From: a virus
IMG/VR virus record: IMGVR_UViG_3300030116_008367
Span: 1 to 20,182 of that record
Direction: 5' to 3' (one strand)
DNA: 20,182 bases
Of this stretch, positions 1 through 19,926 are shown in pieces (the first letter of the stretch is position 1; every line of letters starts with the position of its first letter). Below the pieces are notes generated by a model. The model saw nothing but the letters and a program-made list of their open reading frames with translations, was not told the DNA's origin and did no database searches. The position numbers and the translations under genes were made by a program.

Positions 1-747
1 CTGAATACCTTGAGAACCTACACCGTTATCTCCTTGTATTCCCTGTTGACCTTGAATACCTTGAATACCCTGAATACCTTGTGCACCATCAGCACCATTA
101 TTACCTTGAAGACCCTGAATACCCTGAATACCTTGCTCTCCTTGAATACCCTGAATACCTTGGAATCCTTGAATACCTTGTAGACCCTGATTACCTTGTA
201 TACCTTGGAAACCTTGAGGACCGAAATCTCCTTGAACACCCTGAACACCTTGAGCACCAGCTCCTTGAATTCCTTGAATTCCTTGGATACCTTGATTACC
301 TTGTGCACCAGTTGTACCCTGAATACCCTGAAGACCTTGATTACCCTGAATACCCTGAACACCCTGAATACCTTGATAACCTTGTCTACCCTGAATACCT
401 TGAGCACCCTGTCTACCCTGAATACCTTGGATACCCTGAATACCTTGAGATGCTTGGTTTCCCTGTGCACCAGATATGCCTTGTATACCTTGATTACCAA
501 ATGTACCTTGACGACCTTGTACTCCTTGTCTACCTTGATTACCTTGTCTACCTTGTGTTCCCTGAACACCTTGAATACCCTGAATACCTTGGCGACCCTG
601 AACACCCTGAACACCTGCAGCACCTATACCTTGCAGTCCTTGTATTCCCTGTGCACCTCTGATACCCTGTTGTCCAGTAGTACCCTGTGCAGCTTGGGTT
701 CCTTGTGTACCCTGAATACCTTGTCTACCCTGAATACCCTGAAGACC
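1..747 (-). repeat. 9-bp tandem repeat tract encoding G-X-Q triplets
   Basis: About 83 nine-base units encode Gly-X-Gln. The commonest unit reads GGTATTCAG or GGTATTCAA on the minus strand. Units differ mainly in the X codon and in wobble bases. Because the repeat contains few stop codons in any frame, long false reading frames appear on both strands. Three places break the triplet phase: near 13-27 (GV before GSQ), near 247-258 (GA before GAQ) and near 613-627 (GI before GAA). The tract continues past the left edge. Confidence 0.9.
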
Positions 748-1893: not shown

Positions 1894-1894
1894 A

Positions 1895-4135: not shown

Positions 4136-4136
4136 A

Positions 4137-7100: not shown

Positions 7101-8345
7101 ATCCTGAAGGATTGTGTTCTGAGCAACATTTAAAGTATTTTGAAGAATGGTAGCACCACCAACAGTAAGTTTTGCTTCTAGTAATGCATCATCTTCTACT
7201 GTTAACTTATCTTTGAAAGTTGCAGCAGCACCAACTTCCATTGTACCAAAGATTGTTGCTGAAGTTCCAACTTGTAAGTTTTCTGTAATTGATGCACCTG
7301 CACCAACATCAAGTCTGTTCTCTAATGTAGATACACCTACAACTCTTAAAGATCCAGCTATGGTAGTAGCAGATCCAACAAATAATTGTCTTTCAAGTAG
7401 TGTTTGTCCTTCAACAAACAATTCATTTTCAAATGTTACGATTCCATTTTCAGTTACAGTAAAATCATCTTCTATGGTTGTTATACCTGTTACCTTAAAC
7501 CTAGAATCTACAGTAGAACCTGCACCTGTTGCAAAAAATCCGTCAGTAAATTCTGCCCTCTGGAAGAAACTGGAGAAACCCAATACAATAATATCTCCTT
7601 GGAATCTGGATATACCTTTAACATGAAGATGATTTTGTGGAAGTGTAAGACCGATACCAATGTATGAGTTAGTTACAAGTCCCGCAGGTCTCTTTTCCCA
7701 AAAGGTTCTAATTGCAATGTCTGCAATGTTAGGGTTATTTGGATTTACAGAACCTTCTACTAATTCTTTTAGAGATCCACCACCACTGGTAATCAAGTTT
7801 AAACCACGGAATGATGAAGTACCTACAAGAGTCTCTTCGTTATAAACAAAAATACCTTCACTGAATGAAGGTTCAAATTCTACCCATTTTACACCTTGAG
7901 CATCTTTTGTTAGGAATGCTCCTAAAACACCAGGATTATTAGTTGAGTCATATAAGTTGGCACTCAATCTCATGTCGCCAACAACATCTAATCTCCTTGT
8001 TGGATTTAATGTTCCTAAGCCTAATCTACCATCACTTTCTCTTATTATTAAACTTGCACCCTCTGGGTTTCCGTCTTCGCCACCAACTCTAAAAACATCA
8101 GTAACAGTTAATATTCCTACCTGTAACTCTTCTAATTCTTGATCAAAATTTACCGCACCTTTAAATGTACTAATACCATTAAAGATAGCATTACCTGCTA
8201 CATTAAGATCTCCAAATTCATTATCGTCTCCATCAAAATCATAATATAATTTACCAAAAACATAAACGTCTTTATAGAACTTTGCGTCCTCGTTTTGTAT
8301 CGTTGGTTTTCCAATTATAGTTAGATCTTCTCTCTGTTCTTCCAT
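4137..8345 (-). CDS. Large tail fibre / beta-helix structural protein (1402 aa)
   Basis: This is a modular virion protein. Residues 1-105 are an unassigned N-terminal region. Residues 108-245 hold G-(L/I)-G-x-x-x-P...(L/H)-x-V-x-G fibre modules. Residues 285-450 carry short repeats (LRVVGVSTLENRLDVGAGAS type) expected to form a trimeric beta-helical shaft. Residues 531-740 contain two copies of an F-I-A-A-E-(S/T)-V...C-x-D-D-(I/V)-K module. Residues 870-1130 (KNIIYVSKFGNDANSGRTEG, then GDTIYVRSGVYSEN) look like a right-handed parallel beta-helix of the pectate-lyase or tailspike type. Residues 1186-1268 form a G-x-G-Y module, and the C-terminus ends in DQAGNFKIGEGITIDQTTST (1361-1380). The start ATG overlaps the previous stop (TGATG), with AGGAGGT 11 nt upstream. 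It may bind or cut host surface glycans, but no catalytic residues can be assigned. No T4 gene name is justified. Confidence 0.8.
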   Translation of the reverse strand: MEEQREDLTIIGKPTIQNEDAKFYKDVYVFGKLYYDFDGDDNEFGDLNVAGNAIFNGISTFKGAVNFDQELEELQVGILTVTDVFRVGGEDGNPEGASLIIRESDGRLGLGTLNPTRRLDVVGDMRLSANLYDSTNNPGVLGAFLTKDAQGVKWVEFEPSFSEGIFVYNEETLVGTSSFRGLNLITSGGGSLKELVEGSVNPNNPNIADIAIRTFWEKRPAGLVTNSYIGIGLTLPQNHLHVKGISRFQGDIIVLGFSSFFQRAEFTDGFFATGAGSTVDSRFKVTGITTIEDDFTVTENGIVTFENELFVEGQTLLERQLFVGSATTIAGSLRVVGVSTLENRLDVGAGASITENLQVGTSATIFGTMEVGAAATFKDKLTVEDDALLEAKLTVGGATILQNTLNVAQNTILQDQLNVYNDVDFDSAMNVDGDSTLEGTLKVGPDGSVITTTGIGSVGFGTNQPSRDIEFNNKDVFFNQGAVYDSDNNVGFNSTTTGESVRVPKSVFASVGVGTTGLIAPRFFDAAALLRQNADFIAAESVGFITSTEYLTPSFSLTTSNYRNCRDDIKSILYSVANDITRGGNEQSVGAGLSYYNGNTLLHITGTDTNGYSIKDATSTAVNYASNVAKYVINNAPYPRSYQIPAINTEYALCSRLIEVNKEFIAAETVDRILATYPSHNITGGSQACIDDVKQVLDAVMYNLSFSGNDRVYDATRYYVDGRFVAGEETEVLYGYNQMLAIVNDVIRNNTVAKVTGTLNIYTQITIGSPATRIDQVASVTSLVGIVTVGVGLTRLPDTRTDSYSLFSAQVIDQTVLPDSARNSNHDPEGCANVYSAINTLIGITSSIIGIGTTAAPTVTYPDSKVVWAPRGGDSKNIIYVSKFGNDANSGRTEGDAKLTIGGAAAVAQQGDTIYVRSGVYSENNPIGLRTDVSVTGQDLRLVTIYPQNDDDIFYVRRGCLVENLNFAYSQDPLDNLAPIKITGGCVAFPPPAGVGSARSGCLDIGPANEGPSGRWRSPYIRNCTNFITDSIGMKIDGDHVGSAFTGAVNPGQDLKSMVCDSFTQYNENGIGVSITNNAYAQLVSIFTINSDIAIFCNTGGSCDLTNSNSSFGNFGLVADGVGRIDFTGITTVATVGGDSDTTTLTGVADTIGNYRRPYNGQALFFKINLSDYDDTTATGILTAPLRSLRKIDILNGGSGYSQAAPPAVTISSPGGPEGITAEASANVSVAGTITSIDVTNEGRNYLPNEELVISIGGGGGGIATAVTEPIYFTVAEATEPTPTVGLTTVTLDQFIPYSVGVGVTAEMFRISRILTSSHSFEYVGTGVNINRANPFQGGVPIPENEVVATNGAQIPFTSTDQAGNFKIGEGITIDQTTSTIRGRDFSRAIQAEVTPLILALR
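6126..6755 (-). repeat. Internal duplication in the 1402-residue protein
   Basis: Residues 531-605 and 659-740 align as two copies. They share FIAAE(S/T)V, then a single cysteine (C565, C689) followed by DD(I/V)K and a helical stretch (ILYSVANDI against VLDAVMYNL), then G(G)N and a YY motif near the end. The second copy has a longer tail. DNA identity is low, so the duplication is old. Confidence 0.65.
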
Positions 8346-9070
8346 CAGATATTAAGACCTCCTATTATATTTTTAATAGAATTTTGACTTAGTTGACCTT
8401 TTAGTTGATCTTGAAGTGCATTTGTGTCAATCTTAGATCCAACGTCTTTTAATCCACCAAGTTGATCTTTTAGATCAGTTTCAAATTTACCTGCAAATGT
8501 ATTTGTTGCATCTGCAATTTCTGGTAATGCCTTACCTAACGCATCTTCCAAGAAGTCACCGCCAACAAAACTTCCTGCAAAAGCATTTTTAGCAAAGTCT
8601 ATACCCATTGATCTTGGAAGATTACCTAACTTAGCAGATACAGTAGCTTTTAATCCAGCTATATCTACCTTTCCACCTCTAGCATTTAAGTTTATATTTT
8701 TTCCTTTAAGATCAATATCATTATCTGCCTCTAGGAGAATATTTTGTGCTTTGATTGTAACTGATCCATTTTCATTTGCAATAATACTTACTCCTCCCTT
8801 TAAAGCAGTTATAGTTATATCATCATCTTTTTCATTTCCATCTCCACCCGCAGCGATTTCTATTTTTTTATCGCTATGAAGATGTAATGTTCCATCAGTT
8901 GTTTGGAACAAACTTGATTTATCTCCATCTTTGTCAGTTGCACCATATATCATCCATGAACAAGTTCCTCCATTTCCCATCTGGGGATTATCAGTATCAA
9001 TTCTGAAAGTAGGACCGCAAGATATAAACTTTCTTTTATCCCATTCTTGTGCTTCTACGGGTCTAGACAT
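8345..9070 (-). CDS. Baseplate spike needle-like protein (gp5 C-terminal-like), 241 aa
   Basis: Residues 66-145 are alternating short beta strands (ITITALKGGVSIIANENGSV, then TIKAQNILLEADNDIDLKGK) of the pattern found in the triple-stranded beta-prism of T4 gp5 and VgrG spikes. Residues 1-60 form a distinct N-terminal domain with C18 and C37. Residues 150-241 are amphipathic and helical with short D-x-L/LGG repeats. It lies directly after the gp5-like gene, whose stop overlaps this ATG by 1 nt (TAATG). A perfect GGAGGAGGA ribosome binding site at 9076-9084 makes the start certain. I infer that it supplies the membrane-piercing needle that T4 carries on gp5 itself. Alternatives are a gp5.4-like tip or another hub protein. 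Confidence 0.65.
   Translation of the reverse strand: MSRPVEAQEWDKRKFISCGPTFRIDTDNPQMGNGGTCSWMIYGATDKDGDKSSLFQTTDGTLHLHSDKKIEIAAGGDGNEKDDDITITALKGGVSIIANENGSVTIKAQNILLEADNDIDLKGKNINLNARGGKVDIAGLKATVSAKLGNLPRSMGIDFAKNAFAGSFVGGDFLEDALGKALPEIADATNTFAGKFETDLKDQLGGLKDVGSKIDTNALQDQLKGQLSQNSIKNIIGGLNI
8357..8363 (-). promoter_or_regulatory. Shine-Dalgarno for the 1402-residue gene
   Basis: AGGAGGT reads on the minus strand 11 nt before the ATG at 8343-8345. It is a full match to the anti-Shine-Dalgarno core but with rather long spacing. It lies inside the last codons of the upstream gene (Gly-Gly) and supports both the chosen start and translational coupling. Confidence 0.7.
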
Positions 9071-11463
9071 TAGTATCCTCCTCCATATCCACCGCCACCT
9101 GACGATCCACCACCTGATCCCGAAGACCCGCCACCACTAGGAGGACTACTAGGAGGAGGAGTGTAACTCTGTCCAGACGTTTGTTGACTTGATGTATCAG
9201 TTGTTCCAGTTTGAGTAGTATTACTTGTGTTAGTTTGGGTTGTGGAGTCGGGAACATTTGCCTGTATGGATGGTGGAGATACTGTCATTGTAGACGCAAC
9301 ACTAACTGCTGTTCCAAAACTTTGTTCTGGAGTATCATATATTATTTCATGAGGTGCGGTTGTGTGTGCGATACCAACCATCTTTACACCCCTTGTTGGA
9401 TGAATGTGATAAGGACCGTAGTATGGTTTTCCTTTTACATAACCAACTAAATTATTCTCTTCTGGATCAATACAGTCAATAACTTGTTTGATTTCTGCTG
9501 TTGGTTCAGGAGTTCCTAGAATTGGTCTAATTTGAGCACCTGACCCAGTATTACTATTAATAGTAATCTTCGGTAGAAGAGGAGTTATATTGATATTTAG
9601 TGGTTTAACAGAGACTACACCACCCTTATCAATAACGAGTTTGTACTCATTTCCAAACTGATCAGTTGCTGTATCATCTGGTGAGTATCCTGAACCTGCA
9701 TCATCAACCGCAGCATCAACAACACCGTAATCCTCTGGTTCTCCTGGTGGATATCCTTCCCCTTCAGATACAACATAAAGACCTACAACTTCTCCTTTTT
9801 TAATTAGTGCTCTACCAATTGCACCATATCCTTGCTTACAATCATCAACAATCTCAACAAAAGGAGGGAACTCATATCCTGTGCCAGGTTTAGTAACTCT
9901 AAGACCAATAACACTTGCAGTGGTGTCTGGTTCTGCTATATCACCACTCAATAATCCCATTAGAACTTCTCCTGCAGCTCCAAATCCATTTCCACCAAAT
10001 ATTCTAACTTTTGGTTTACCACAATTTCCAGTTGATTTTAATCCACCAAAACATTCTGATGCAGGGTCACTAAAATCTGTAGCAAAGTTTGGAATGCCTA
10101 AACCCCTGTCTAAAGAACCCGCAAGTCCTTCTGCTTTTTGAACAAAACTGTTTGCAGAATCTAATATACTCTCTGCACTAGTTGCAAATTCTGATATTCC
10201 TCCTCCTATTGAGAATGATTGGGATTTACCTGTACACTTATCATAACCTTCTCCACAATCAAGTATTGCACCTGGACTAGTGAGCATATCTACTTTACTT
10301 CTAATACTATCGGTAATACTATATCCTTTGGATAGCACTTTACTTATACTTCCAAGAGGACCTGCTAAAGTATCGCCAATACTATCAACTATACCATTTA
10401 AAAGTGATCCCGTAAATTGATCTGCCATACATTGTGGAAATCCAAGAACTTCATCAAATGAATCCGTCATAGATCTCAACATTGTTTCAACAGTTCCTGC
10501 TAAAGCAGCAGTAACATTACCTGCCATACATGGAAGTGCTTTCTGAAGTCCACCCACTGGACCAACCATTGCTTTTTGTGCTGCTACACCTGCTAAATGT
10601 GCTGCTACAGGGTTTTGAGATACTGCTAACACCTGATTAAAAACAGTGTCATATAATACCTTTAATCCTGTCTGCACCTGTCCCGTTAATTCTCCAACAA
10701 CATTTTCACTAATATCTCCAACTAAACCATTAACACCTGTTGTGATGGTTTTACTTGTGCTTTTTATCAATTGATCTATCTTATCAATTTTTCCTTCTCC
10801 CGCCTCTGAAAGTTTTTTGAAATCTTCTATAAAATTATTAACACTTGACTGTACTTTAGTTGTACTACTATCTGTGCAAGCACTACCTTTGGTAACTGCT
10901 TTACCAATATTATTACTTATGGTTACATTATCATTTTTATCTGCATTTTCCTTTGTTGTAGCAACTGGAGATTTTTGACTATCAATTGTTTCTTGATTTG
11001 ATTCATCTACTTTAATTGCTTTATTCTGTTCATACTGTTCTTTTGGTATCTCATTAGTATAACCTGTGAATGGTTTAAACGCACCACTATAAGCTGCAAA
11101 TGCATCACTGGATGCCTTTGTTCTACCAAAACTTGCAATGATTGCAGGAACTTGGGCATCGTCACCATCTAAGAAGAATCCTAATACAATTTCTCCAGGT
11201 TCAATGTATATTGACTGTGCAGAATTCTTTGCTCCTGTTCCCGCAGTTGGAGGTAACAATACGATTGCCAAAGGTAAATCTACATCTGGTAACTTTTTCT
11301 CATCAGGATGATAACCCATAATCCTGACTCTTCTTTTGAGACCCCAGTTTTTATTGACGTTCCAGTTTACTTTATGGTTAGGAGCTGGAGGAACTTGTCC
11401 TATCCACCATCTAAAACCATCTTTTCCAAGAAAATTTGTTTTTATATTATTTGAATCATCCAT
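9070..11463 (-). CDS. gp5: gp5-like baseplate hub protein (797 aa, no lysozyme domain seen)
   Basis: Residues 1-140 match the N-terminal OB-fold region of gp5 in marine T4-like phages (FRWWIGQVPPAP at 17-28; RVRIMGYHPDE at 45-55; IEPGEIVLGFFLDGDDAQVP at 87-106). In T4 this domain binds gp27. Residues 205-480 are a helical, cysteine-containing region with no T4 counterpart that I know. Residues 517-592 carry G-(T/S)-G-Y modules. Residues 680-706 hold a histidine motif, YYGPYHIHPTRGVKMVG followed by H700 and H705, which I associate with cyanophage gp5. Residues 766-797 are a Pro/Ser/Gly low-complexity tail. I see no lysozyme domain, although many database entries call such proteins tail lysozyme. 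It follows gp27 with a 1-nt overlap and is followed by the needle-like gene. Confidence 0.8.
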   Translation of the reverse strand: MDDSNNIKTNFLGKDGFRWWIGQVPPAPNHKVNWNVNKNWGLKRRVRIMGYHPDEKKLPDVDLPLAIVLLPPTAGTGAKNSAQSIYIEPGEIVLGFFLDGDDAQVPAIIASFGRTKASSDAFAAYSGAFKPFTGYTNEIPKEQYEQNKAIKVDESNQETIDSQKSPVATTKENADKNDNVTISNNIGKAVTKGSACTDSSTTKVQSSVNNFIEDFKKLSEAGEGKIDKIDQLIKSTSKTITTGVNGLVGDISENVVGELTGQVQTGLKVLYDTVFNQVLAVSQNPVAAHLAGVAAQKAMVGPVGGLQKALPCMAGNVTAALAGTVETMLRSMTDSFDEVLGFPQCMADQFTGSLLNGIVDSIGDTLAGPLGSISKVLSKGYSITDSIRSKVDMLTSPGAILDCGEGYDKCTGKSQSFSIGGGISEFATSAESILDSANSFVQKAEGLAGSLDRGLGIPNFATDFSDPASECFGGLKSTGNCGKPKVRIFGGNGFGAAGEVLMGLLSGDIAEPDTTASVIGLRVTKPGTGYEFPPFVEIVDDCKQGYGAIGRALIKKGEVVGLYVVSEGEGYPPGEPEDYGVVDAAVDDAGSGYSPDDTATDQFGNEYKLVIDKGGVVSVKPLNINITPLLPKITINSNTGSGAQIRPILGTPEPTAEIKQVIDCIDPEENNLVGYVKGKPYYGPYHIHPTRGVKMVGIAHTTAPHEIIYDTPEQSFGTAVSVASTMTVSPPSIQANVPDSTTQTNTSNTTQTGTTDTSSQQTSGQSYTPPPSSPPSGGGSSGSGGGSSGGGGYGGGY
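9076..9084 (-). promoter_or_regulatory. Strong Shine-Dalgarno for the spike-needle gene
   Basis: GGAGGAGGA on the minus strand ends 5 nt before the ATG at 9068-9070. The same bases are the final glycine codons (GGA GGA GGA) of the upstream gp5-like protein, so the coding sequence and the ribosome binding site are one. This is the best ribosome binding site in the window. Confidence 0.8.
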
Positions 11464-12914
11464 TATTCTTCATCCTGTGACTGTTGTTGTTCCCTATCAG
11501 GATTATCTCCTGCAAAATCTTTCAGAATTTTCATAACTGTGTATGATTTTTCTATATCATAATGATGACATAACTCTTTGATTAGGTAAGCACCAGACTG
11601 TTTATTATCTATAGCATCTGCACCTGTTGTTGCTGTAGACATTGGAGGAAATTCACATTCAATACACATTCCTGCCTCTAAATTTGAATTAAGAGGTATT
11701 GTTACTTGTAATACGTTTGTAAATAATGTATTATATCTTGTAACAGATTGCATTTGAAATTTCAATGGATTAGATTTTTTAAGATGATTCGTATCTCTCC
11801 TTGCCAATACCCCAATATCAAGTATTCCAGTCAATGATCTGGTTGCAGTATCTTCGATAGTATCTTCAGAACCTGTTTTGTTATCAGGATCAAGTTTTAA
11901 TGGATACCTTGTAGGGTCTTCAGAACCCATCAAAGACATATTATCTTTTTTTATCTCATCTTTTCTTTTATAATGGAGTGTTTCAAATTCAAAGTTATAT
12001 GGATTGAAATACATGCCAGTGCTTGAATAGGTTCCTAATTTTAAATTTTTTACGATATCATTATTTTGCAGTATCGAAAAACTCAATATTTTAAAATCAG
12101 TATTTACGGGTCTATCATTTTCATCAAATCCTTGTGTTGCTTCTCCATAGTAAAATGGTGGTGCTTTTAGTTTTTCACCAGAATTACTTGTAAGTTTATA
12201 AGTTTCTTGCCTCATTAAAGTATCAACAGATTTGAATTTATAACCAGTCTTAGTTTGAAAAAATAAAAATCCTGCACTTCCACCACCCGTTGAAGCAGAG
12301 ACAGATTTCTTTGCCAACCATACTATTGTAGGAAATGGTTTTTTTAAATTTCCAATAAATCCATATGAATTTGCTGCCATTTCAACACTAAAACGATCTT
12401 TATCTATACCAAGAGTATCTGTTAAAATATTTTCAACACTAGCACCAATGTTCTGGTCTGGAGAATATTTTTTATAACATCTAACAGTTTCATTAACTAT
12501 TGCTTCCCTAGAAGTCAAGTTAAGAGTGAACATTTCTCTTTTAGCATCTCTGGTGACACCTGTAATACCAGTTACATACATGTAATCTTGTGCTTTTTCA
12601 GAAAAATCTAATGGAATATTAGTCTCAACATTTGCTCCAATTTTTATCCTGCATATTTCTCCACCTCTAATAGGCAAAGCATTATAAAGTGCTTTTAGTT
12701 TATCATCAGTGCTTTCTGTATCTTCCTCATCTTCTGTAACAACTTGAGCTTCATTAATTACTAATACCTTTAAGGTAACACAAGGAGAAAATATATCTTC
12801 ATAATAATCAACAGCAGCAATAAACGGAGTCAAATCAAAAGGTTTTTCGCCCTCCTTTCGTCTGTCCGAATGTATTAAAAATTCTTCTATTATACACTGA
12901 TTAGTTGCTGACAT
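11463..12914 (-). CDS. gp27: gp27-like baseplate hub subunit (483 aa)
   Basis: The N-terminal region (CIIEEFLIHSDRRKEG at 7-22; FIAAVDYYEDIFSPCVTLKV at 31-50) and the following YVTGITGVTRDAKREMFTLN segment fit the gp27 baseplate hub family of marine T4-like phages. T4 gp27 has 391 residues, so this protein is longer. In T4 a gp27 trimer forms a ring that is a continuation of the tail tube and carries the gp5 spike. The position immediately before the gp5-like gene is the expected order and strengthens the call. The ATG at 12912-12914 lies 5 nt after the preceding stop. A GGAGGTG at 12929-12935 is 14 nt away, unusually far, so initiation may depend on coupling. The start is otherwise well placed. 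Confidence 0.8.
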   Translation of the reverse strand: MSATNQCIIEEFLIHSDRRKEGEKPFDLTPFIAAVDYYEDIFSPCVTLKVLVINEAQVVTEDEEDTESTDDKLKALYNALPIRGGEICRIKIGANVETNIPLDFSEKAQDYMYVTGITGVTRDAKREMFTLNLTSREAIVNETVRCYKKYSPDQNIGASVENILTDTLGIDKDRFSVEMAANSYGFIGNLKKPFPTIVWLAKKSVSASTGGGSAGFLFFQTKTGYKFKSVDTLMRQETYKLTSNSGEKLKAPPFYYGEATQGFDENDRPVNTDFKILSFSILQNNDIVKNLKLGTYSSTGMYFNPYNFEFETLHYKRKDEIKKDNMSLMGSEDPTRYPLKLDPDNKTGSEDTIEDTATRSLTGILDIGVLARRDTNHLKKSNPLKFQMQSVTRYNTLFTNVLQVTIPLNSNLEAGMCIECEFPPMSTATTGADAIDNKQSGAYLIKELCHHYDIEKSYTVMKILKDFAGDNPDREQQQSQDEE

Positions 12915-12919
12915 GGTTC

Positions 12920-14152
12920 TTAATTAAGCACCTCCAATGCCTCTTTCTCTCTAAGTAACTTGTAGTCATCTCCACTCCTATATGCTTTCATAGCATTAGA
13001 ATAACTTTTAGCACCAGACCTTGTATTTGCATAATCTGATCTTTGTGGTGGAGCAACGACAGTTATTGTTTCTGCAACAGCCTTTGGAGTTATTTTATCA
13101 AGATTGAGTTTATTTTTTCCCTCTATTGTTAATTTTTCGTTCTTCAACTTCTGTTCTGCATTATTAACCTGTTGATTAACCTTACCTACCATATTATTTT
13201 GTTTCTTTTCTAAGTTATTCTCATCACTTGTACTTGAATAGTTTTTTCTATATTTAACTTCAGTAGGATCTATACCAAATTTTTCAAGAGCAGCACTAAT
13301 CTCCTCTTTAGTATCATACTCTGAAGGATTTTTCTCAACCTCAGACTTAACCATATCATACATTCCAAAAGGAATAAGTTCTTTGTTATCATCCAATACA
13401 ACCAACGGATCAACTTTTACACCACTACTATTACTTGATGTTTCGTCACTACCCTCTTTATCATCTTTATTATCTTTATCATCACTTTCTCCCCCTTCCC
13501 CTTCAAACTCCTTATCAAGTTCTTTACTATTTTCTGGATCTTCAAAAACTTTCTCTGCACCAGTGATAGCACCACTTAACTTTTGCCAACCTAATTCTAC
13601 GTCAGAAAATGCTTCTTTTAATCTTCCCGACTTATCTTTAAAGTCAAGTTCTATTATATTTTTTCCAAATGCAAGAACTGTTTTAGCTAGACCTTTTACA
13701 ATATCAAAAGTTCCCGAAACAAAATTTGATATTCCCGTCCAAACATCCTGAATTACTTTTACTGCTTTTTCAATCGTATCTTTAATATTATCAATATTTT
13801 TAAATAACCAAGCACCCGCAAAAAGTCCAATTATTTTTAACACGCTATTAAGGATACCTCCACCACTTTTTTTAATAGAATCTTTGATATTAGAAAATGA
13901 TGAGGACATTAAATTAGGTTTTTCTAATCTTGCTTCTTCTGCTTGTTTTTGTTGTAGGTCTTTTTGTTTTATTCTATTCTCTTTAATAGTCTCTAAACGT
14001 TTTCTTTTCAATTCATTTGCTTTTTGCAATGCTGTTTGTATCCCAATAACAGTTTTAGACATTGATTTAATATTATTTTTTAAACCACGAAACTTAGACC
14101 TCATAGAATCTATGGGAGACTTTTTTCCTGGTGGTAATGCTGCTACTGCCAT
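12920..14152 (-). CDS. Helical structural protein, possible hub or tape-measure component (410 aa)
   Basis: I do not recognise a definite family. Residues 40-78 are strongly charged and predicted coiled coil (LKRKRLETIKENRIKQKDLQ). Residues 97-170 are hydrophobic and amphipathic helices (GGGILNSVLKIIGLFAGAWL at 97-116). Residues 203-240 are an acidic low-complexity linker rich in D, E, K, G and S. Residues 310-350 form a second charged helix and the C-terminus is basic. A coiled coil followed by hydrophobic helices is a common make-up of tape-measure and hub proteins. It sits next to gp27, where T4 has genes 28 and 29. It is shorter than T4 gp29 (590 residues). It overlaps the upstream gene by 1 nt. 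Function is inferred from place and composition only. Confidence 0.6.
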   Translation of the reverse strand: MAVAALPPGKKSPIDSMRSKFRGLKNNIKSMSKTVIGIQTALQKANELKRKRLETIKENRIKQKDLQQKQAEEARLEKPNLMSSSFSNIKDSIKKSGGGILNSVLKIIGLFAGAWLFKNIDNIKDTIEKAVKVIQDVWTGISNFVSGTFDIVKGLAKTVLAFGKNIIELDFKDKSGRLKEAFSDVELGWQKLSGAITGAEKVFEDPENSKELDKEFEGEGGESDDKDNKDDKEGSDETSSNSSGVKVDPLVVLDDNKELIPFGMYDMVKSEVEKNPSEYDTKEEISAALEKFGIDPTEVKYRKNYSSTSDENNLEKKQNNMVGKVNQQVNNAEQKLKNEKLTIEGKNKLNLDKITPKAVAETITVVAPPQRSDYANTRSGAKSYSNAMKAYRSGDDYKLLREKEALEVLN

Positions 14153-15579
14153 TATGCTAAGTATGCGTTATAAGTTGATTTTGAGAAATTATCATACAAA
14201 TTATCTTTATTTGATGAACTAATATTAGTAGGCACACTGTTACCTGCAGAAGCATACTTTTTCCCGTTAGATTGTTGTTTCTGCCCAGCTTGAATCACAT
14301 TTACCTTAACTGGTGCTTTAGCAGTTGGTCCAAGATTTTCATAACTTTGACTTCCCGTACCACTTATCTCAACGTTATCTCCAGTACCTGTAACATCAAC
14401 TCCTTCATTATTAGCATCTCTCTTCAAGTCTGCATGTATGGATTGACCCATGGCAGAGACACTCAAAACACCTGAAATACCTTGCATACCTGGTATTAAA
14501 CTGGTAATAGCACCTGCAGTATATAATCCTGCACCCACCCAGTTACCTTTCATACCTTCACTTACAGCACCCCAGATATCAAGACCAGTACCAATAATAG
14601 GTATAGATCCTAAAATTCCTTTTTTAGCAATTTTACCTGCAGTTTTTTGTACTACTTTCTTACCAACTTCTTGAGTTACTTTCTTTTTACCTAAACCTAA
14701 CATTTTTAATGCTTTCTTCAAAGGACCAGGTATCGCTCTTTTTATAGCAGCAAATGCCTTTCCCATTGAAGCCTTAATAATTCTTCCTGCAATCCTAAAT
14801 GGGAAAGTTACAACCCTAGTAACTAATCTACCAATACTTCTAGCAAAATTACCTGCAAGTTTTATCAAATTGCCTACAATTTTATTGAAGAAATAAACTC
14901 CAGTTACTACTTGTTGAAGAGCAGAGTTTAAATCTATACCTAATTCTTTGAATAATTCTGTATTACCATCTCTCCATGCATTAAACAATCTAAATGCTTT
15001 CTTTACAATAAAACCACCAAAAAGAACCATTATTGCTTTCTTCAAACCTTCAAAGAAACCAAATGTTTTCTTCTCTTGTTCCTCTACCTTTTTTCCTGCT
15101 TCTTGTTCTAAATCAGTTTCTTCTAATTCTGACTCTGCCTCCTGTTTTTGTTTCTTTTCTAAGAAAAGACTTTGTTGTTTTGCTAATTCTTCTTGTATTT
15201 TAGCATCAACCTCATTTCCTTTTATAATTACTTTTCTAATGTTAGCAAGAGATGTTTGTATATTAGCAACACTAGCTTCCAATGCATCTACTCTCTTAGT
15301 TAAATTATTAACTGGAGCAACTAAAGCACCACCCTCTGCTTGTACTCTCTTTTCTTCTATAGCACCTTTACCTGCTAATACTAAAGCACCCCCACCAAAA
15401 GCCATTTTACTGGTTCTAGCTATTTTCTGTCTATTTTGTTGGGATAGAATACGACTTTTAAATATCTTCTTTCTTTCTGCGGGTGTCAAAATTTTTCCCG
15501 TAGCAGGATCTATCCCAGTATCTGCTGCATCCAGATTGGGATTATTACCTATATTGAAAAATTGATCGTTAACCGCCAT
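14152..15579 (-). CDS. Helical structural protein, possible tape-measure or hub component (475 aa)
   Basis: Not assigned to a named family. Residues 32-60 are basic (PAERKKIFKSRILSQQNRQK). Residues 90-170 form a long coiled coil ending in a highly charged E/K/Q segment. Residues 172-200 are hydrophobic (GFFEGLKKAIMVLFGGFIVK). Residues 220-300 are basic amphipathic helices. Residues 320-385 form a glycine-rich hydrophobic stretch (ILGSIPIIGTGLDIWGAVSE), followed by a polar tail. It shares the general plan of the next gene (coiled coil, then hydrophobic helices), so the two may be a functional pair or distant relatives. Its ATG at 15577-15579 lies inside the end of the gp51-like gene, an 11-nt overlap, so it is probably coupled. 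Candidates are a tape measure, a hub protein like gp28 or gp29, or an ejected protein. Confidence 0.6.
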   Translation of the reverse strand: MAVNDQFFNIGNNPNLDAADTGIDPATGKILTPAERKKIFKSRILSQQNRQKIARTSKMAFGGGALVLAGKGAIEEKRVQAEGGALVAPVNNLTKRVDALEASVANIQTSLANIRKVIIKGNEVDAKIQEELAKQQSLFLEKKQKQEAESELEETDLEQEAGKKVEEQEKKTFGFFEGLKKAIMVLFGGFIVKKAFRLFNAWRDGNTELFKELGIDLNSALQQVVTGVYFFNKIVGNLIKLAGNFARSIGRLVTRVVTFPFRIAGRIIKASMGKAFAAIKRAIPGPLKKALKMLGLGKKKVTQEVGKKVVQKTAGKIAKKGILGSIPIIGTGLDIWGAVSEGMKGNWVGAGLYTAGAITSLIPGMQGISGVLSVSAMGQSIHADLKRDANNEGVDVTGTGDNVEISGTGSQSYENLGPTAKAPVKVNVIQAGQKQQSNGKKYASAGNSVPTNISSSNKDNLYDNFSKSTYNAYLA

Positions 15580-15745
15580 TTACACCATTTTTTAAATTTT
15601 CTTCTTCAATATATTGAGATAAGAGAGTTACATATATTTCTCTTTCCCAAGGCATCATATTTTCTAACTCTGTTAATGAATATTTATGATGCTGCATCAA
15701 GGCAAAATTTGTTTTGAAGTATGACTCAAGAGATTCGTGAGCCAT
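15569..15745 (-). CDS. gp51: gp51-like small baseplate hub assembly protein (58 aa)
   Basis: A short frame runs from ATG 15743-15745 to TAA 15569-15571. It encodes 58 residues beginning MAHESLESYFKTNFALMQHH, with HKYSLTELENMMPWEREIYV at 20-39 as its main motif. This L-x-x-MMPWER-(E/D)-IY segment is characteristic of the very small gp51-like hub assembly catalysts annotated after gp26 in marine T4-like phages; T4 gp51 itself is much larger. It lies 2 nt after gp26 and overlaps the next gene by 11 nt. The conserved motif, the tight packing and the operon order make it a real gene despite its length. It probably acts in assembly rather than in the virion, by analogy with T4. Confidence 0.75.
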   Translation of the reverse strand: MAHESLESYFKTNFALMQHHKYSLTELENMMPWEREIYVTLLSQYIEEENLKNGVNGG

Positions 15746-15747
15746 GG

Positions 15748-16464
15748 CTAATCGAAAAAAGACGATAACCCTTCTAAAACGATATGATTACTAACTTTAG
15801 TTTTAGGATTAACTATATCAAAAGTATGTTTCAACTTTGGCATAGTCTCAAAAAATCTCTCAATTTTTTTGAACTGTTTTGAATTAAGTTGTTCAAGGAA
15901 AGTATTTAACTCTTTCTTTGTACAGTCAGAAGCAACAAATGATTCCTCTGGACTAAAGACTTGATCAATACACTCAGCAATCAACTCAAAAGTATCTTCT
16001 ACCGAAACATCAACATCATTAAAATTAGACTTAATGAACTGTCCTAGAGATGGATATCTTAATCTTAGAGTATAATTATCATCTAAAACTATATCCTTAT
16101 CATGTTCTGGATCTACATCAAATGTTATTTGATCTATGTCAACTAATACAGGAACTTGTGTCACTCCATCATCAGGACAAGTAATATTAACTTCAACTTG
16201 CTCTCCAACAGATTTACCACGAATATGTAGGAATAGATATTCTATCTCAAAAGTTGGTAGTTTGTCTACTTTAATGCCCTTTGTCAATATACAACTGGAA
16301 AGAACATCCTTAACAGCACGACCAATTTGTTTTTCATCTTGACTCTCCATTGCTATAACAAGAATTTTTTCTTCTTTAACAAGGAAAGGTCTATATTTTA
16401 CAGTTTTTTTCGTAACAGGCAACTCTAACTCATACGTTGGAGTTGTAATGGTTGGTAAAGGCAT
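15748..16464 (-). CDS. gp26: gp26-like baseplate hub subunit (238 aa)
   Basis: The sequence fits the T4 gp26 baseplate family: RPFLVKEEKILVIAMES at 25-41, LPTFEIEYLFLHIRGKSVGE at 69-88, then EVNITCPDDG. T4 gp26 has 208 residues, so the length is close. In T4, gp26 belongs to the central hub assembly pathway together with gp51, gp27, gp28 and gp29, and the same set of neighbours follows here. The ATG at 16462-16464 has no Shine-Dalgarno sequence. A 49-nt gap separates it from gp54, the longest gap in the leftward unit, so an internal promoter is possible. Confidence 0.8.
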   Translation of the reverse strand: MPLPTITTPTYELELPVTKKTVKYRPFLVKEEKILVIAMESQDEKQIGRAVKDVLSSCILTKGIKVDKLPTFEIEYLFLHIRGKSVGEQVEVNITCPDDGVTQVPVLVDIDQITFDVDPEHDKDIVLDDNYTLRLRYPSLGQFIKSNFNDVDVSVEDTFELIAECIDQVFSPEESFVASDCTKKELNTFLEQLNSKQFKKIERFFETMPKLKHTFDIVNPKTKVSNHIVLEGLSSFFD

Positions 16465-16513
16465 AATAAATTATAGCAATTCGTATAGTATATAGCAGGG
16501 TTATCGTCACTTA
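16465..16513 (-). promoter_or_regulatory. 49-nt gap before gp26 with TATAAT-like element
   Basis: On the minus strand this AT-rich gap contains TGCTATA twice, about 20 nt apart, and a TATAAT (16470-16475) 5 nt before the gp26 start. The TATAAT is too close to the ATG to give a normal leader, and no matching -35 element is visible, so promoter activity is doubtful. Confidence 0.2.
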
Positions 16514-17365
16514 TTAATTAAAACTACTTCTGCGACTTTTGTTTTGTTTTTCTCTATTAATTTGATATTGTGGTTTTGTTTTTTTCTTCTTACTACCAGA
16601 TAAACTTATTGTTGAATCTGTTGTAGTTATGACCTGTTCCTCAACATCAGGTCTTGTAACATCATTCTCACTTTGAAGTCTCTCCTTAACATCCGCTATG
16701 GTAAGATTATTATACCCTGCACCACTACGATACTTAGATATGTTACTTATAGGACCACAAACATAACGAGTGTATTCAAAAGCACAAGAAGCAGTTAAAA
16801 TCTTAGATGCATCATATCCAACTTGAACAGCACTTAGGTTTTGTGGGAATAGATTAAAGAAAGTATATTCTAAATTATTAGAATAATCTCTTTCAAACTT
16901 CATTATCTTAGTTTCTTCCATTCTATAATCATCAGGATACTGCATCCTAACATAATAGTTTGATTTGCTTTGAGTTATAGGTCCTATTCTTCCACCAGGT
17001 GCATGAGTTCCACCTGCAGTATATTCCATCCAGTGCTCTAAAAATTTAATAACTTTATAGTCATCATCAACGTAAAAAGTAAGATTAATTGGTACATATA
17101 TTCTACTATGTGCAAATTTTTCTGTTATTCCTGTATAAGCACCAGTGATGTTTGCAGTAGCAAGGGACGAACCTGGCAATGTTGCCTGACTGCATAGTAA
17201 ACCCATCTCTCCTGCTATGAATCTTTTATCTACTCCTCTTTTTCTTAAGTAACTACCTAATCCTCCAACTGCTCTACCAAAACGAACTTCATAATGAGAA
17301 GTTTGAGCTAGATTAGTTAGAGTTGGTTTAAAATCGCTTATCCTTCTTGGTCTCGGTTTTTCCAC
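16514..17365 (-). CDS. gp54: gp54-like baseplate tail tube initiator (283 aa)
   Basis: Residues 11-110 follow the pattern of the tube-initiator family in marine T4-like phages: FKPTLTNLAQTSHYEVRFG at 12-30, LPGSSLATANITGAYTG at 63-79, then NLTFYVDDDYKVIKFLEHWM at 94-113, and FPQNLSAVQVGYD at 173-185. T4 gp54 (320 residues), gp48 and gp19 are related tube-fold proteins, and this protein has the same beta-rich tube-like layout. In T4, gp54 sits on the gp48 platform and starts tube polymerisation. The start is a GTG at 17363-17365. An in-frame TAG at 17375-17377 leaves no other usual start, and the first internal Met is residue 54. There is no visible Shine-Dalgarno sequence. It is the first gene of the leftward unit. 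Confidence 0.7.
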   Translation of the reverse strand: MEKPRPRRISDFKPTLTNLAQTSHYEVRFGRAVGGLGSYLRKRGVDKRFIAGEMGLLCSQATLPGSSLATANITGAYTGITEKFAHSRIYVPINLTFYVDDDYKVIKFLEHWMEYTAGGTHAPGGRIGPITQSKSNYYVRMQYPDDYRMEETKIMKFERDYSNNLEYTFFNLFPQNLSAVQVGYDASKILTASCAFEYTRYVCGPISNISKYRSGAGYNNLTIADVKERLQSENDVTRPDVEEQVITTTDSTISLSGSKKKKTKPQYQINREKQNKSRRSSFN

Positions 17366-17366
17366 A

Positions 17367-17374
17367 CTAAATAT
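17367..17374 (+). promoter_or_regulatory. Candidate late promoter for gp4 unit (CTAAATAT)
   Basis: CTAAATAT resembles the T4 late -10 box TATAAATA and lies 30 nt before the gp4 ATG. If transcription begins about 6 nt downstream of it, as at T4 late promoters, the leader would be about 25 nt. There is no -35 box, which is normal for T4-type late promoters. The mirror-image motif on the other strand serves the leftward unit. Confidence 0.5.
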
Positions 17375-17395
17375 CTAATATGAGTTTAATTATAC

Positions 17396-17403
17396 TTATT
17401 TAG
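17396..17403 (-). promoter_or_regulatory. Candidate late promoter for leftward structural unit (CTAAATAA)
   Basis: CTAAATAA reads on the minus strand 30 nt before the GTG of gp54. The spacing to the start codon is the same as that of the opposing motif upstream of gp4. It would drive the long structural unit from gp54 to the fibres. Confidence 0.5.
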
Positions 17404-17404
17404 C

Positions 17405-17839
17405 ATGACATATAAAGGAAAATACCGACCATCTCATCCTGAGAAGTATAAAGGTAATCCCATGAATATAGTGTATCGTTCATTATGGGAAAGAAAGTTT
17501 ATGGTTTATTGTGATAAAAATAGAAATATATTAGAGTGGTGGAGCGAAGAAATTGCTATTCCTTACAGATCACCGATTGATAGAAGGGTTCATAGATACT
17601 TCCCAGATTTTTACATCAAAGTGAAAGAATCCCATAATAAAATTAAATCATACCTTATAGAAGTAAAACCTAAAAAACAAACAAAACCTCCAGTAAAACC
17701 AAAGAGACAAACAAAGGGTTATATTCGTGAAGCATATGAATATGCTAAAAATCAATCAAAATGGAAAGCAGCAACCGAATATTGTTTAGATCGTGGGTGG
17801 GAGTTTAAAGTAATTACAGAAAAAGAACTAGGAGTATGA
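17405..17839 (+). CDS. gp4: gp4-like head completion nuclease (144 aa)
   Basis: The protein closely fits the T4 gp4 head-completion family (T4 gp4 is 150 residues): YKGKYRPSHPEKYKGNPMNI at 3-22, YRSLWERKFM at 24-33, YRSPIDRRVHRYFPDFYIKV at 54-73. A PD-(D/E)xK nuclease signature is visible: E29, D68 in FPDFY, and E86-V-K88 in YLIEVKPK. In T4 the protein is needed to finish packaged heads before tails join. The C-terminal third is lysine-rich, suiting contact with DNA. The gene is the first of the rightward unit. There is no Shine-Dalgarno sequence before the ATG at 17405, and the next gene overlaps its end by 4 nt (ATGA). Confidence 0.88.
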   Translation: MTYKGKYRPSHPEKYKGNPMNIVYRSLWERKFMVYCDKNRNILEWWSEEIAIPYRSPIDRRVHRYFPDFYIKVKESHNKIKSYLIEVKPKKQTKPPVKPKRQTKGYIREAYEYAKNQSKWKAATEYCLDRGWEFKVITEKELGV

Positions 17840-18180
17840 GTAGACTATCCGATGTATTAAAAGATTTTACAGGTTTGGGAGATGTTGATGATATCTACCA
17901 AGAGGTTCTAGGTGCATTAACAGAGGGTGGTGCTCCAGAGGTTGGAAAGTATTATACTTTTGTATATCGTCCCAAAACACCTCAGTTAAGGTATGATGAA
18001 TATCCTTTAGTAGCAGTTACGGGTGTGTTTGATTGGGGATTCAAAGGAATTAACTTTCATTGGGGACAATCAAGACAATATACCTATCCAGAGATAGTTG
18101 GTGGTCTGTATAATATAACTGATGAAGAGATATCCGATGCCCGAAATTTATCTTTTGGTAAATATAGGCTAAATAGATAA
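17836..18180 (+). CDS. Conserved-looking protein of unknown function (114 aa)
   Basis: I cannot name this protein. It contains YTFVYRPKTPQLRYDEYPLV at 40-59 and WGFKGINFHWGQSRQYTYPE at 67-86. The run of aromatics and the G-F-x-G-x-N-x-H-W segment suggest a small folded domain, not a random frame. Broadly similar Y-x-P-K...YD-x-P-L-V...GF-x-G-x-N-x-H layouts occur in other tailed-phage proteins, but I cannot say the families are the same. The ATG overlaps the end of gp4 (ATGA), and the last codons contain the CTAAATA motif before gp48. Its place suggests a structural or head-tail joining role. Confidence 0.65.
   Translation: MSRLSDVLKDFTGLGDVDDIYQEVLGALTEGGAPEVGKYYTFVYRPKTPQLRYDEYPLVAVTGVFDWGFKGINFHWGQSRQYTYPEIVGGLYNITDEEISDARNLSFGKYRLNR
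18169..18176 (+). promoter_or_regulatory. Candidate late promoter before gp48 (CTAAATAG)
   Basis: CTAAATAG overlaps the last codons of the 114-residue gene (Leu-Asn-Arg-stop) and lies 19 nt before the gp48 ATG. It would give a short leader of about 12 nt containing a purine-rich AAAGAGA. It may raise gp48 and gp53 output relative to gp4. Confidence 0.4.
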
Positions 18181-18194
18181 AAAAAGAGATAATA

Positions 18195-19244
18195 ATGGTC
18201 AATTTCGGAGAAAATTACGCAGAGCAAGAGAAATATTTTGGGTCTGAAGAATATCAGTCAAGTGCAAAAGCAGCGATTAAAAGTGGTGCACCGTTACCCA
18301 CATTTGAGAAAAATAAGGATTTAGGTAAACAGACTGAAGCACCTAGTGAAACACCAAAATCATCTGCACCTCTCAGATATCCTTATACAAAGATAGATGA
18401 GTATGATGATTATATGAGACTTGAAATTGTTTCGTTCACTCCACCAGGTTTAGAAAGAGCAGATGATTCACTTCGTTTAAAAACTAGTGATGAAATTGCG
18501 AAAAAAGATATTAACTATACAATTTTACTACCAGTTCCTCAAGGTGTAGAAGATGGTAGATCTGCAGAATGGGGAATGTCAAGTGTAGATGCAGTTGGAA
18601 TGTTGGCAGGATCTACTGCAGCTGCAGGTATGAATGCAGAGGGTAGTATTGCTACTATGGGGGCAGCAGCTTTTGGTAATATTACAGGAGCAATAAATGA
18701 GTTATCACAAACAGATAGAGCAGTAGCTGGTAATTTACTTACAGCAGGAGTCGCAGGACTGGTTGCAAATGCTGTAGGTGGTGGAAATGCACAATTTATT
18801 GAAAGAGAGACTGGATTAACACTCAATAAGAATCAACAATTACTATTCAATGGTGTAACTGGTAGAGACTTTTCATTTAATTGGGATATAGTTCCAAGAA
18901 GTAAAAAAGAAGCTGAGCAAGTAAAAGTTATCATAAGAATTCTTAAACAATCAATGTCTGCTCAGAGGGGAGGAACAAAAACAGTAAAAGGTTTATTTCT
19001 AAAATCTCCAGATATATTTTATCTGACATATATGAAAGGAAAAGACCAACATCCATTCTTAAATGCTTTTAAACCATCTGCACTTACTAGTATGTCTGTA
19101 AATTACACAGGTTCTGGAACTTATGCTACATACCATGATGGAAATCCCGTACATTTAAATGTAGGTTTAACTTTCAGAGAATTGACACCAGTATACAGAG
19201 AAGATTACTTATCAGAAGAGTCAGGAAATGGAGTAGGATACTAA
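18195..19244 (+). CDS. gp48: gp48-like baseplate tail tube cap (349 aa)
   Basis: The size is near that of T4 gp48 (364 residues) and the layout fits the family as found in marine T4-like phages. There is a polar N-terminus, PLRYPYTKIDEYDDYMRLEI at 59-78, a central alanine/glycine-rich insertion at 130-196, LLFNGVTGRDFSFNWDIVPR at 216-235, and a C-terminal block with HPFLNAFKPSALTSMSVNYT at 286-305 and LTFRELTPVYREDY at 325-338. In T4, gp48 caps the hub and, with gp54, is the platform on which the tube starts. Here its partner gp54 is on the opposite unit. The ATG has a weak AAAGAGA site upstream. It ends in TAATG, overlapping gp53 by 1 nt. Confidence 0.8.
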   Translation: MVNFGENYAEQEKYFGSEEYQSSAKAAIKSGAPLPTFEKNKDLGKQTEAPSETPKSSAPLRYPYTKIDEYDDYMRLEIVSFTPPGLERADDSLRLKTSDEIAKKDINYTILLPVPQGVEDGRSAEWGMSSVDAVGMLAGSTAAAGMNAEGSIATMGAAAFGNITGAINELSQTDRAVAGNLLTAGVAGLVANAVGGGNAQFIERETGLTLNKNQQLLFNGVTGRDFSFNWDIVPRSKKEAEQVKVIIRILKQSMSAQRGGTKTVKGLFLKSPDIFYLTYMKGKDQHPFLNAFKPSALTSMSVNYTGSGTYATYHDGNPVHLNVGLTFRELTPVYREDYLSEESGNGVGY

Positions 19245-19900
19245 TGGGATTTTTTAGAGAGTTACCAAATGTCGAATATCTGTCTCCACTTGCAGATAGA
19301 AATTCTTCTTTCGATTATATAAAAGTTAAAAACTTATTTCGTCGTGTAAAAATCAGAGACGATTTGAAAAAATACTTTACTATCTTTGATAGAATAACTA
19401 TTAAAGATGGTTTCCGTCCAGATCAAGTTGCAGAATCTGTATATGGGCAAAGTGATCTTGATTGGGTAGTGTTAATAACTGCGGGAATAGTTAATGTAAA
19501 CAATGAGTGGCCATTAAATAGTCGTGAATTATATGAATTTGCTCTCAAAAAATATGGTGCAAGTTTAAATGCAACAAAATATTATGAAACAATTGAAATT
19601 AAGGATCTTAGAAATAGATTAATTTTACCTGCGGGTCAGATTGTAGATGAAGATTTTTCAATACCAGACCCTTCTAATCCACTTACTAATCTAACAGGTA
19701 ACGCAGTTAGAATTGGTATATCCAACTATGAATATGAAACTCGTGTAAATGAGAAGAAAAGAAATATTGAATTACTGAAACCACAGTATCTACAACAATT
19801 CTTAAAAGATATGAGAAAGATAATGAAATATTCAAAGTCTTCTCAATTTATTAATACAAAATTAATCAGAACTGCAAATACGAGAATCAAATCTCCATAA
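19244..19900 (+). CDS. gp53: gp53-like baseplate wedge subunit (218 aa)
   Basis: FFRELPNVEYLSP at 3-15 and the central block RITIKDGFRPDQVAESVYGQ at 50-69 followed by SDLDWVVLITAGIVNVNNEW at 70-89 are characteristic of the T4 gp53 wedge family, which has a LysM-like domain. T4 gp53 has 196 residues, so the length agrees. In T4, gp53 joins the finished wedges around the hub. The ATG overlaps the gp48 stop. The stop codon TAA runs straight into the A-tract of the downstream hairpin, so this is the last gene of the rightward unit. Confidence 0.88.
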   Translation: MGFFRELPNVEYLSPLADRNSSFDYIKVKNLFRRVKIRDDLKKYFTIFDRITIKDGFRPDQVAESVYGQSDLDWVVLITAGIVNVNNEWPLNSRELYEFALKKYGASLNATKYYETIEIKDLRNRLILPAGQIVDEDFSIPDPSNPLTNLTGNAVRIGISNYEYETRVNEKKRNIELLKPQYLQQFLKDMRKIMKYSKSSQFINTKLIRTANTRIKSP

Positions 19901-19926
19901 AAAAAAGGGGTCTAAACGACCCCTTT
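19899..19926. terminator. Bidirectional intrinsic terminator between gp53 and gp32
   Basis: A perfect 9-bp stem (AAAGGGGTC, 19904-19912, pairs with GACCCCTTT, 19918-19926) closes a five-base TAAAC loop. Read leftward, the stem runs into eight T residues, three of them in the stem, which is a classic intrinsic terminator for the gene entering from the right. Read rightward, only the three T residues of the stem follow, so it is weaker for gp53. It separates the two convergent units. Confidence 0.85.

Follow-up and report, generated by a model that had tools for sequence, protein, structure and literature searches.

A 39-nt gap between two divergent gene units of a T4-like marine phage carries two CTAAATA heptamers that face each other, each 1 nt from the start codon of the opposite gene. 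We consider it likely that the gap consists of two facing T4-type late promoters, each made of a single [A/C]TAAATA box and each starting transcription where the opposite gene begins. The original observation of the facing heptamers was correct, and the late-promoter reading, as judged from sequence comparisons, is well supported for the relatives of the phage and very likely for the window itself. The feature that looks new is the interlocked face-to-face layout rather than the CTAAATA motif, together with the wide retention of this layout while the spacer between the boxes drifts.

The divergent gap and its boxes

The window, meaning the whole stretch of DNA analyzed here, is a 20,182-base fragment from an IMG/VR virus record, and the enrichment before late genes was therefore tested in relatives. 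The best DNA matches at the locus among named isolates were the cyanophages P-SSM2 and P-SSM5 (68.1% identity, 66% of the query). Two units diverge from the gap at 17366-17404. The left unit, on the minus strand, contains in order a gene that we call gp54-like, gp26 and further tail genes. The label gp54-like was coined in this analysis for the phrog_45 gene, and the P-SSM2 gene at the same position is annotated as "hypothetical protein, T4-GC 10". The features of the locus are as follows.

16514-17365, minus strand: tail-tube family gene (phrog_45), gp54-like; first gene of the left unit, with a GTG start at 17365 in the mechanical ORF list
17367-17373, plus strand: CTAAATA box towards gp4; ends 31 nt before the ATG at 17405 and lies 1 nt from the left gene's GTG
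17374-17396: spacer between the facing boxes, 23 nt; length and sequence variable among relatives
17379, plus strand: predicted transcription start of the right unit, with the box beginning at -12 (T4/Aeh1 offset, PMC1524935)
17391, minus strand: predicted transcription start of the left unit (T4/Aeh1 offset, PMC1524935)
17397-17403, minus strand: CTAAATA box towards the gp54-like gene, ending 31 nt ahead of that gene's start; lies 1 nt from the gp4 ATG
17405-17839, plus strand: gp4, head completion/closure (phrog_218); first gene of the right unit
17836-18180, plus strand: short gp2-like gene of the DNA end protector family (phrog_429)
18169-18175, plus strand: third putative late box (CTAAATA), within the 3' end of the preceding gene and 19 nt ahead of gp48
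18195-19244, plus strand: gp48, baseplate tail tube cap (phrog_230)
19244-19900, plus strand: gp53, baseplate wedge (phrog_232)
9594-9600, minus strand: stray CTAAATA inside the gp5-like gene; upstream of no start and outside the system

The original prediction had placed CTAAATA 30 nt before both divergent starts, in mirror image and with equal spacing. The placement and the mirror symmetry were confirmed for this window, but the distance is 31 nt on each side; the spacing is equal because both boxes lie 1 nt from the opposite start codon. The further copy announced before gp48 was found, ending 19 nt upstream of that gene, and so was the single remaining copy inside gp5, away from any start. 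The minus-strand box at 17397-17403 is the single [A/C]TAAATA found in the 60 nt before any start of the listed minus-strand genes at 1-17365.

The number of CTAAATA copies in the window is not above chance, with 4 found as compared to 6.66 expected from 100 dinucleotide shuffles. However, three of the four copies lie 15-45 nt upstream of a start in the correct orientation (P about 6e-6, simple binomial with 15 starts). Thus, only the position of the heptamer is informative, its count being at shuffle level. A search of the window for TATAAATA with one mismatch gave 49 matches as compared to 62 expected. Folding of the predicted RNA leaders gave z values of -1.55 and 0.13, and we claim no structure for them.

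Two other sequence elements were observed in the units. A hairpin, GGGGTC-TAAAC-GACCCC, is located directly after gp53 at 19901-19926, with an A run before it and a short T run after it. It was seen by reading the sequence, was not reported by the scan of the region, and is likely to be a terminator that closes the right unit. On the minus strand just before gp26, at 16470-16478, TGCTATAAT is an extended -10-like sequence and possibly represents a host-type promoter inside the late unit. In P-SSM2, the heptamers TGCTATA and GCTATAA likewise show enrichment before genes.

Evidence for a late promoter box in P-SSM2 and in gp4-selected loci

The original prediction had suggested CTAAATA as the late promoter of the phage, to be checked by its enrichment before starts of late genes genome-wide. 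Such an enrichment was found in the whole genome of P-SSM2, where heptamers were counted 5-40 nt upstream of 334 starts. The top upstream heptamer was ATAAATA, with 36 of 66 genome copies in this interval and 1 in the opposite orientation. CTAAATA ranked third, with 17 of 28 copies in the interval and none in the opposite orientation; its distances to the starts were 5-44 nt, with a peak at 20-24 nt.

Enrichment before late genes was examined with lists of virion and replication genes that were hand-picked from the P-SSM2 annotation. [A/C]TAAATA was present 10-45 nt upstream of 17 of 44 virion genes and 32 of 258 other genes, as compared to only 1 of 32 replication/metabolism genes (virion versus replication, p 1.8e-4). 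For CTAAATA alone, the corresponding numbers were 7 of 44, 9 of 258 and 1 of 32, and the difference between virion and replication genes was not significant (p 0.07). Thus, the expected preference for late genes was borne out for the two-letter form of the box, but not for CTAAATA by itself. Genes for gp55, gp45 and gp33 are annotated in P-SSM2, and none of these is located in the 20-kb window.

A second sample consisted of the 84 listed loci selected by gp4 (690 kb, 784 ORFs), a selection that inflates the counts of junction boxes. In these loci, 239 of 264 distinct CTAAATA contexts lay 5-45 nt ahead of an ORF start and pointed towards it. The junction boxes account for 123 of the 239, and outside the gp4 junction the proportion was 116 of 132. 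Control heptamers in the same 84 loci showed this placement in 0 of 269 contexts (TATTTAG), 8 of 180 (GTAAATA), 16 of 336 (TTAAATA) and 60 of 167 (ATAAATA). With 172 GTAAATA and 320 TTAAATA contexts away from starts, CTAAATA looks avoided elsewhere in these loci. Inspection by eye of the 25 CTAAATA exceptions showed that 9 abut the start of the opposite gene, about 5 are promoter-like at miscalled ORFs and about 11 are strays. The enrichment and orientation in the relatives thus suggest that CTAAATA, and with it the form [A/C]TAAATA, is very likely the T4-type late promoter of the window's clade.

Comparing the box alone, the core TAAATA is identical to that of the TATAAATA-like T4 box, with C as the first base here. 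The sequence CTAAATA, beginning at -12, has been reported as the late promoter of Aeh1 (Nolan et al. 2006, PMC1524935), and the motif as such is therefore already known; it may also have been mentioned earlier in the cyanophage literature. The late consensus in a review of cyanophages is given as NATAAATA (PMC2984593), from which CTAAATA is one base off, and this counts against the late-promoter reading. A survey of 26 genomes searched for late promoters using TATAAAT (PMC3037559).

Boxes against start codons in the pelagiphage HTVC008M

The whole genome of HTVC008M (198 starts; L388-L390) contains 28 [A/C]TAAATA boxes within 60 nt of a start. Twelve of these end exactly 5 nt before the start codon, a distance at which neither GTAAATA nor TTAAATA was found in this genome. 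The other 16 boxes are located 6-49 nt from the start, several of them with a leader resembling a Shine-Dalgarno (SD) sequence. The peak at 5 nt is consistent with transcription that begins 12 nt after the heptamer's first base. Given the -12 offset, a distance of 5 nt puts the predicted +1 on the start codon itself, and leaderless late mRNAs are therefore predicted for those HTVC008M genes. Among 43 listed IMG/VR relatives, an in-frame ATG is located exactly 5 nt after the box in 14 of 26 distinct gp4 contexts and is absent in 12. At the gp2/gp4 junction of HTVC008M (18916/18943), the gap measures 26 nt and contains two back-to-back boxes separated by 2 nt.

Late promoters of pelagimyophages were described in 2020 as not predictable by the cyanophage method (PMC7029224). 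For the related methylophage Melnitz, 15 late promoters were obtained in a search with TATAAAT (PMC9004378), which counts against a simple story. In our limited literature search, the word "leaderless" was absent from PMC12753301 and occurred in PMC9004378 only in the title of a reference.

Retention of the facing pair at the gp4 junction

Junctions upstream of gp4 were collected in four scans, each providing the best 80 of 589-599 matches, and the sample leans to relatives of the four gp4 queries. One further scan added 17 loci. The total of at least 352 loci contained 247 distinct contexts, and 242 remained after 5 that were cut by contig ends had been dropped. Another 27 KVP40-type loci and a further set of 44 loci (43 used) were kept outside the 242.

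The 84 loci comprise 80 IMG/VR loci among the matches listed as well as P-SSM2, S-SRM01, S-SKS1 and the window. Both boxes were present in 80 of them and only the plus-strand box in 3, whereas 1 was cut at a contig end. The right-pointing box was thus found in 83 of the 84 listed loci (L080 ends there) and the left-pointing box in 81. In the larger sample, facing [A/C]TAAATA boxes were identified in 178 of the 242 distinct gp4 junctions among the matches listed, 2 of these with an additional box, and none of the 242 showed a facing arrangement for any of four control heptamer pairs. The other junctions among the matches listed contained the plus box only (22), the minus box only (12), a back-to-back pair (1, KVP40) or no box (29), and in 25 of the 29 boxless junctions the start codons overlap or are 0-1 nt apart.

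The choice of [A/C] is no artefact of the search pattern. With the first base left free, the plus boxes 15-45 nt before gp4 in the matches listed began with C in 196 cases, A in 5, G in 1 and T in 1, and the minus boxes near the gp4 ATG with C in 122, A in 72 and T in 1. Many of the loci are closely related, and the junctions were therefore also counted by gp4 clusters. Among the matches listed, the face-to-face layout was the majority form in 75 of the 117 clusters defined at 90% identity; the proportion was 24 of 49 for clusters at 80%, 5 of 17 for those at 70% and 2 of 5 for those at 60%. The facing pair is common, not universal. The other divergent gaps of P-SSM2 (216/217, 242/243 and 314/315) contain no CTAAATA pair.

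Some of the junctions are built differently. In L093, L103 and 23 further distinct contexts of the S-SZBM1/P-TIM40 type, the starts of gp48 and gp4 overlap as CATG or are 0-1 nt apart, and there are no facing late boxes. A minus-strand ATAAATA was observed 65-74 nt inside gp4 in all 25 of these no-gap contexts and in all 5 contexts with a 10-nt gap. It is a candidate late promoter of the zero-gap (S-SZBM1-like) group but was set aside: the site at +65 recurs in 22 of the 212 other contexts, and since it codes for the residues IIY it may be mere coding sequence. Of the 25 loci with only the plus box (not de-duplicated), 9 carry TATACTATGT near the gp4 ATG, mostly directly before it (L059, L198, L200, L214, L288, L289, L302, L303 and L310). 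This sequence is similar to a sigma-70 -10 element and replaces the second late box.

Opposed late boxes are frequent at the gp4 junction in several geometries, and the compact start-codon form is that of the window's relatives. Among the 27 KVP40-type loci, which were inspected by eye and not de-duplicated, 13 are face-to-face (several with 2-13 nt between the boxes), 5 are back-to-back and 9 have other arrangements. The gp48/gp4 junction of KVP40 resembles the window in that gp4 diverges from gp48 with the same CTAAATA boxes, but it differs in being back-to-back, with 8 nt between the boxes, a gap of 66 nt and an SD sequence in both leaders. In L364, a KVP40-type relative, two late boxes adjoin each other back-to-back near the gp4 start and form a perfect 14-bp palindrome, TATTTAGCTAAATA.

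Build of the junction and alternative explanations

The build of the junction was analyzed in 176 clean face-to-face junctions among the matches listed. The left partner is the gp54-like gene in 119 of these and gp48 in 53, with no assignment in 4. The gap is 30-41 nt long in 163 of the 172 junctions with an assigned partner. In S-MbCM100, the gene order is gp53-gp48 on one side of the gap and gp4-(T4-GC 10)-gp26 on the other, whereas P-SSM2 has the T4-GC 10 gene as its left partner and carries gp48 and gp53 on the same side as gp4. The gp4 gene has thus changed arms, and both phages have a facing pair. Matches of the window's left protein to its counterparts in S-MbCM100 and Syn9 were weak (E 9e-6 and 3e-6, respectively), and the match of the window's gp48 to its Syn9 counterpart was clearer (E 9e-14).

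The gp4-side box abuts the ATG in 112 of the 176 junctions and overlaps it by 2 nt in another 49 (TATTTATG), and the plus box begins 0-2 nt from the start of the left gene in 132. Genome compaction alone, with ordinary late promoters squeezed up to the opposite start codons and an exclusion too weak to matter, would fit the 161 of 176 junctions in which the box reaches the gp4 start codon or intrudes on it by 2 nt. This explanation also agrees with the lack of competition at basal activity in five bidirectional promoters of E. coli (Warman et al., PMC12825309). In the same promoters, however, divergent RNA was repressed once one direction was substantially activated, which suggests that the effect of interference depends on promoter strength (PMC12825309), and late promoters may be strongly active. 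Furthermore, the back-to-back layouts of KVP40 and HTVC008M indicate that the facing arrangement is not forced. Compaction as the whole explanation is a serious possibility, although we lean slightly against it.

Another possibility is that host sigma-70 promoters are the main promoters in the gap and that the late boxes are secondary or serve for late boosting only. A 10/12 match to sigma-70 is located on the minus strand at 17416-17389, and -10-like hexamers are about twice as common in the spacers as in shuffles (46 and 52 of 176, as compared to a mean of 23.6 and a maximum of 36 in mononucleotide shuffles), so a host-type promoter in the spacers is possible. For S-PM2 genes whose T4 counterparts are middle genes, dual early/late promoters have also been proposed (PMC2984593). 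However, the region contains no more sigma-70 matches than expected by chance (16 against 17.5), and inspection by eye of the face-to-face gaps printed revealed no hexamer with a conserved position. We consider it unlikely that sigma-70 promoters dominate the gap.

The spacer is 10-27 nt long in the 176 junctions, with one outlier of 39 nt. The mean pairwise identity of the spacer was 0.65 among junctions with equal partner and length, and that of the flank to the left of the plus box was 0.57; the near-identity of the boxes in these alignments is largely by construction, the junctions having been selected for having boxes. Two copies in inverted repeat in a divergent gap might represent one palindromic site (an operator, or a replication or packaging signal) for a dimeric protein, but such a palindrome would need a fixed spacer. 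In the gp54-like group, the spacer takes every length from 15 to 27 nt, which is more than one helical turn. Upstream of other genes in P-SSM2 the box is moreover single, with the 17 of 28 CTAAATA copies located 5-40 nt upstream all facing the start and none facing away. The variable spacer thus argues for two independent promoters, and a palindromic site is very unlikely.

Shine-Dalgarno tetramers were found in none of the 176 gp4 leaders and in 10 of the 176 left leaders; in P-SSM2, they precede 87 of 334 starts and 8 of the 52 starts with a late box within 50 nt. The proposal that TATTTAG at the ATG is a translation signal of the following gene, with the facing CTAAATA as its chance mirror, would fit gp4 leaders without SD tetramers and boxes that abut the start codons on both sides, but it is extremely improbable given that TATTTA[G/T] touches just 3 of 334 P-SSM2 starts, all three in divergent pairs, and that CTAAATA in P-SSM2 lies 5-44 nt upstream of the genes with its peak at 20-24 nt.

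Proposed mechanism

For two facing late promoters, both boxes would presumably be read by the phage sigma factor gp55 together with gp33 and the clamp gp45. The plus box would drive the gp4 unit and the minus box the tail/baseplate unit that begins with the gp54-like gene, and each mRNA leader would run through the other promoter. In most relatives, such an arrangement would accommodate both promoters and both leaders within 30-41 nt, as compared to the 66 nt of the back-to-back layout in KVP40. It would come at two costs. The opposing box would take the place of the Shine-Dalgarno sequence, and two polymerases would be unable to initiate at once, so that firing should alternate.

The predicted 5' ends overlap by 13 nt in the window (17379-17391), and over the 176 junctions the overlap of the predicted ends is 0-17 nt, with one outlier of 29 nt. 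With such an overlap, initiation should be mutually exclusive, since an open polymerase complex at one box would extend over the second box. The geometry thus suggests that probably only one of the two facing promoters fires at a time, which may bring a regulatory benefit. The original prediction was that the two promoters may compete for the sliding clamp and sigma factor and in this way set the balance of the two units. Competition as such is plausible on geometrical grounds, with mutual exclusion as its natural form, but the part concerning the sliding clamp probably needs changing. The clamps serving facing promoters would have opposite orientations and would be loaded over opposite genes, which points to exclusion on the DNA at the polymerase step and not to rivalry for one clamp.

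It is a speculative extension that clamp polarity, and hence the direction of replication, chooses the transcribed strand. Because the clamp would activate only the promoter that matches its orientation, the facing pair might then serve as a direction selector read by the replisome, with replication or nick polarity picking the unit and exclusion coupling the two tail/baseplate arms. We regard such a selector as rather improbable.

Comparison with known systems

The layout is similar to that of T4-type late promoters (gp55/gp33/gp45) in that a single short box is located upstream of late genes, and CTAAATA is shared with Aeh1. It differs from both in the face-to-face interlocking of two boxes, each of which adjoins the start codon of the opposite gene. 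Face-to-face divergent promoters with overlapping 5' ends are known from the argECBH genes of E. coli, where they depend on sigma-70. As in argECBH, the boxes of the gap point at each other, and the predicted 5' ends of the divergent operons would overlap. In contrast to argECBH, no operator was identified in the spacer here, and a phage late sigma factor would presumably be used instead of sigma-70.

Bacterial bidirectional promoters (Warman, Grainger) resemble the predicted arrangement in that their two starts, one per strand, are separated by a few tens of bp and one polymerase excludes the other. Their -10 elements reciprocally overlap, and the starts are usually 18 bp apart and point away from each other (PMC10268837). 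In the gp4 junctions, in contrast, the boxes are located outside and the predicted starts inside, the predicted 5' ends overlap, and the boxes are at least 10 nt apart in all 176 listed junctions.

Significance

T4-like myoviruses are abundant in the ocean, and the analysis provides a late promoter box, defined by its sequence, for the clade of P-SSM2, along with one two-promoter layout that is held in many lineages while the spacer changes. The results may help with the late promoters of pelagiphages, since many of the HTVC008M boxes are located at the start codon, which implies leaderless late mRNAs. The gap itself would serve as a very small natural test of the outcome when two polymerases share one promoter space, and the same gap would test, in a living phage, whether the strand to be transcribed is set by the orientation of the sliding clamp.
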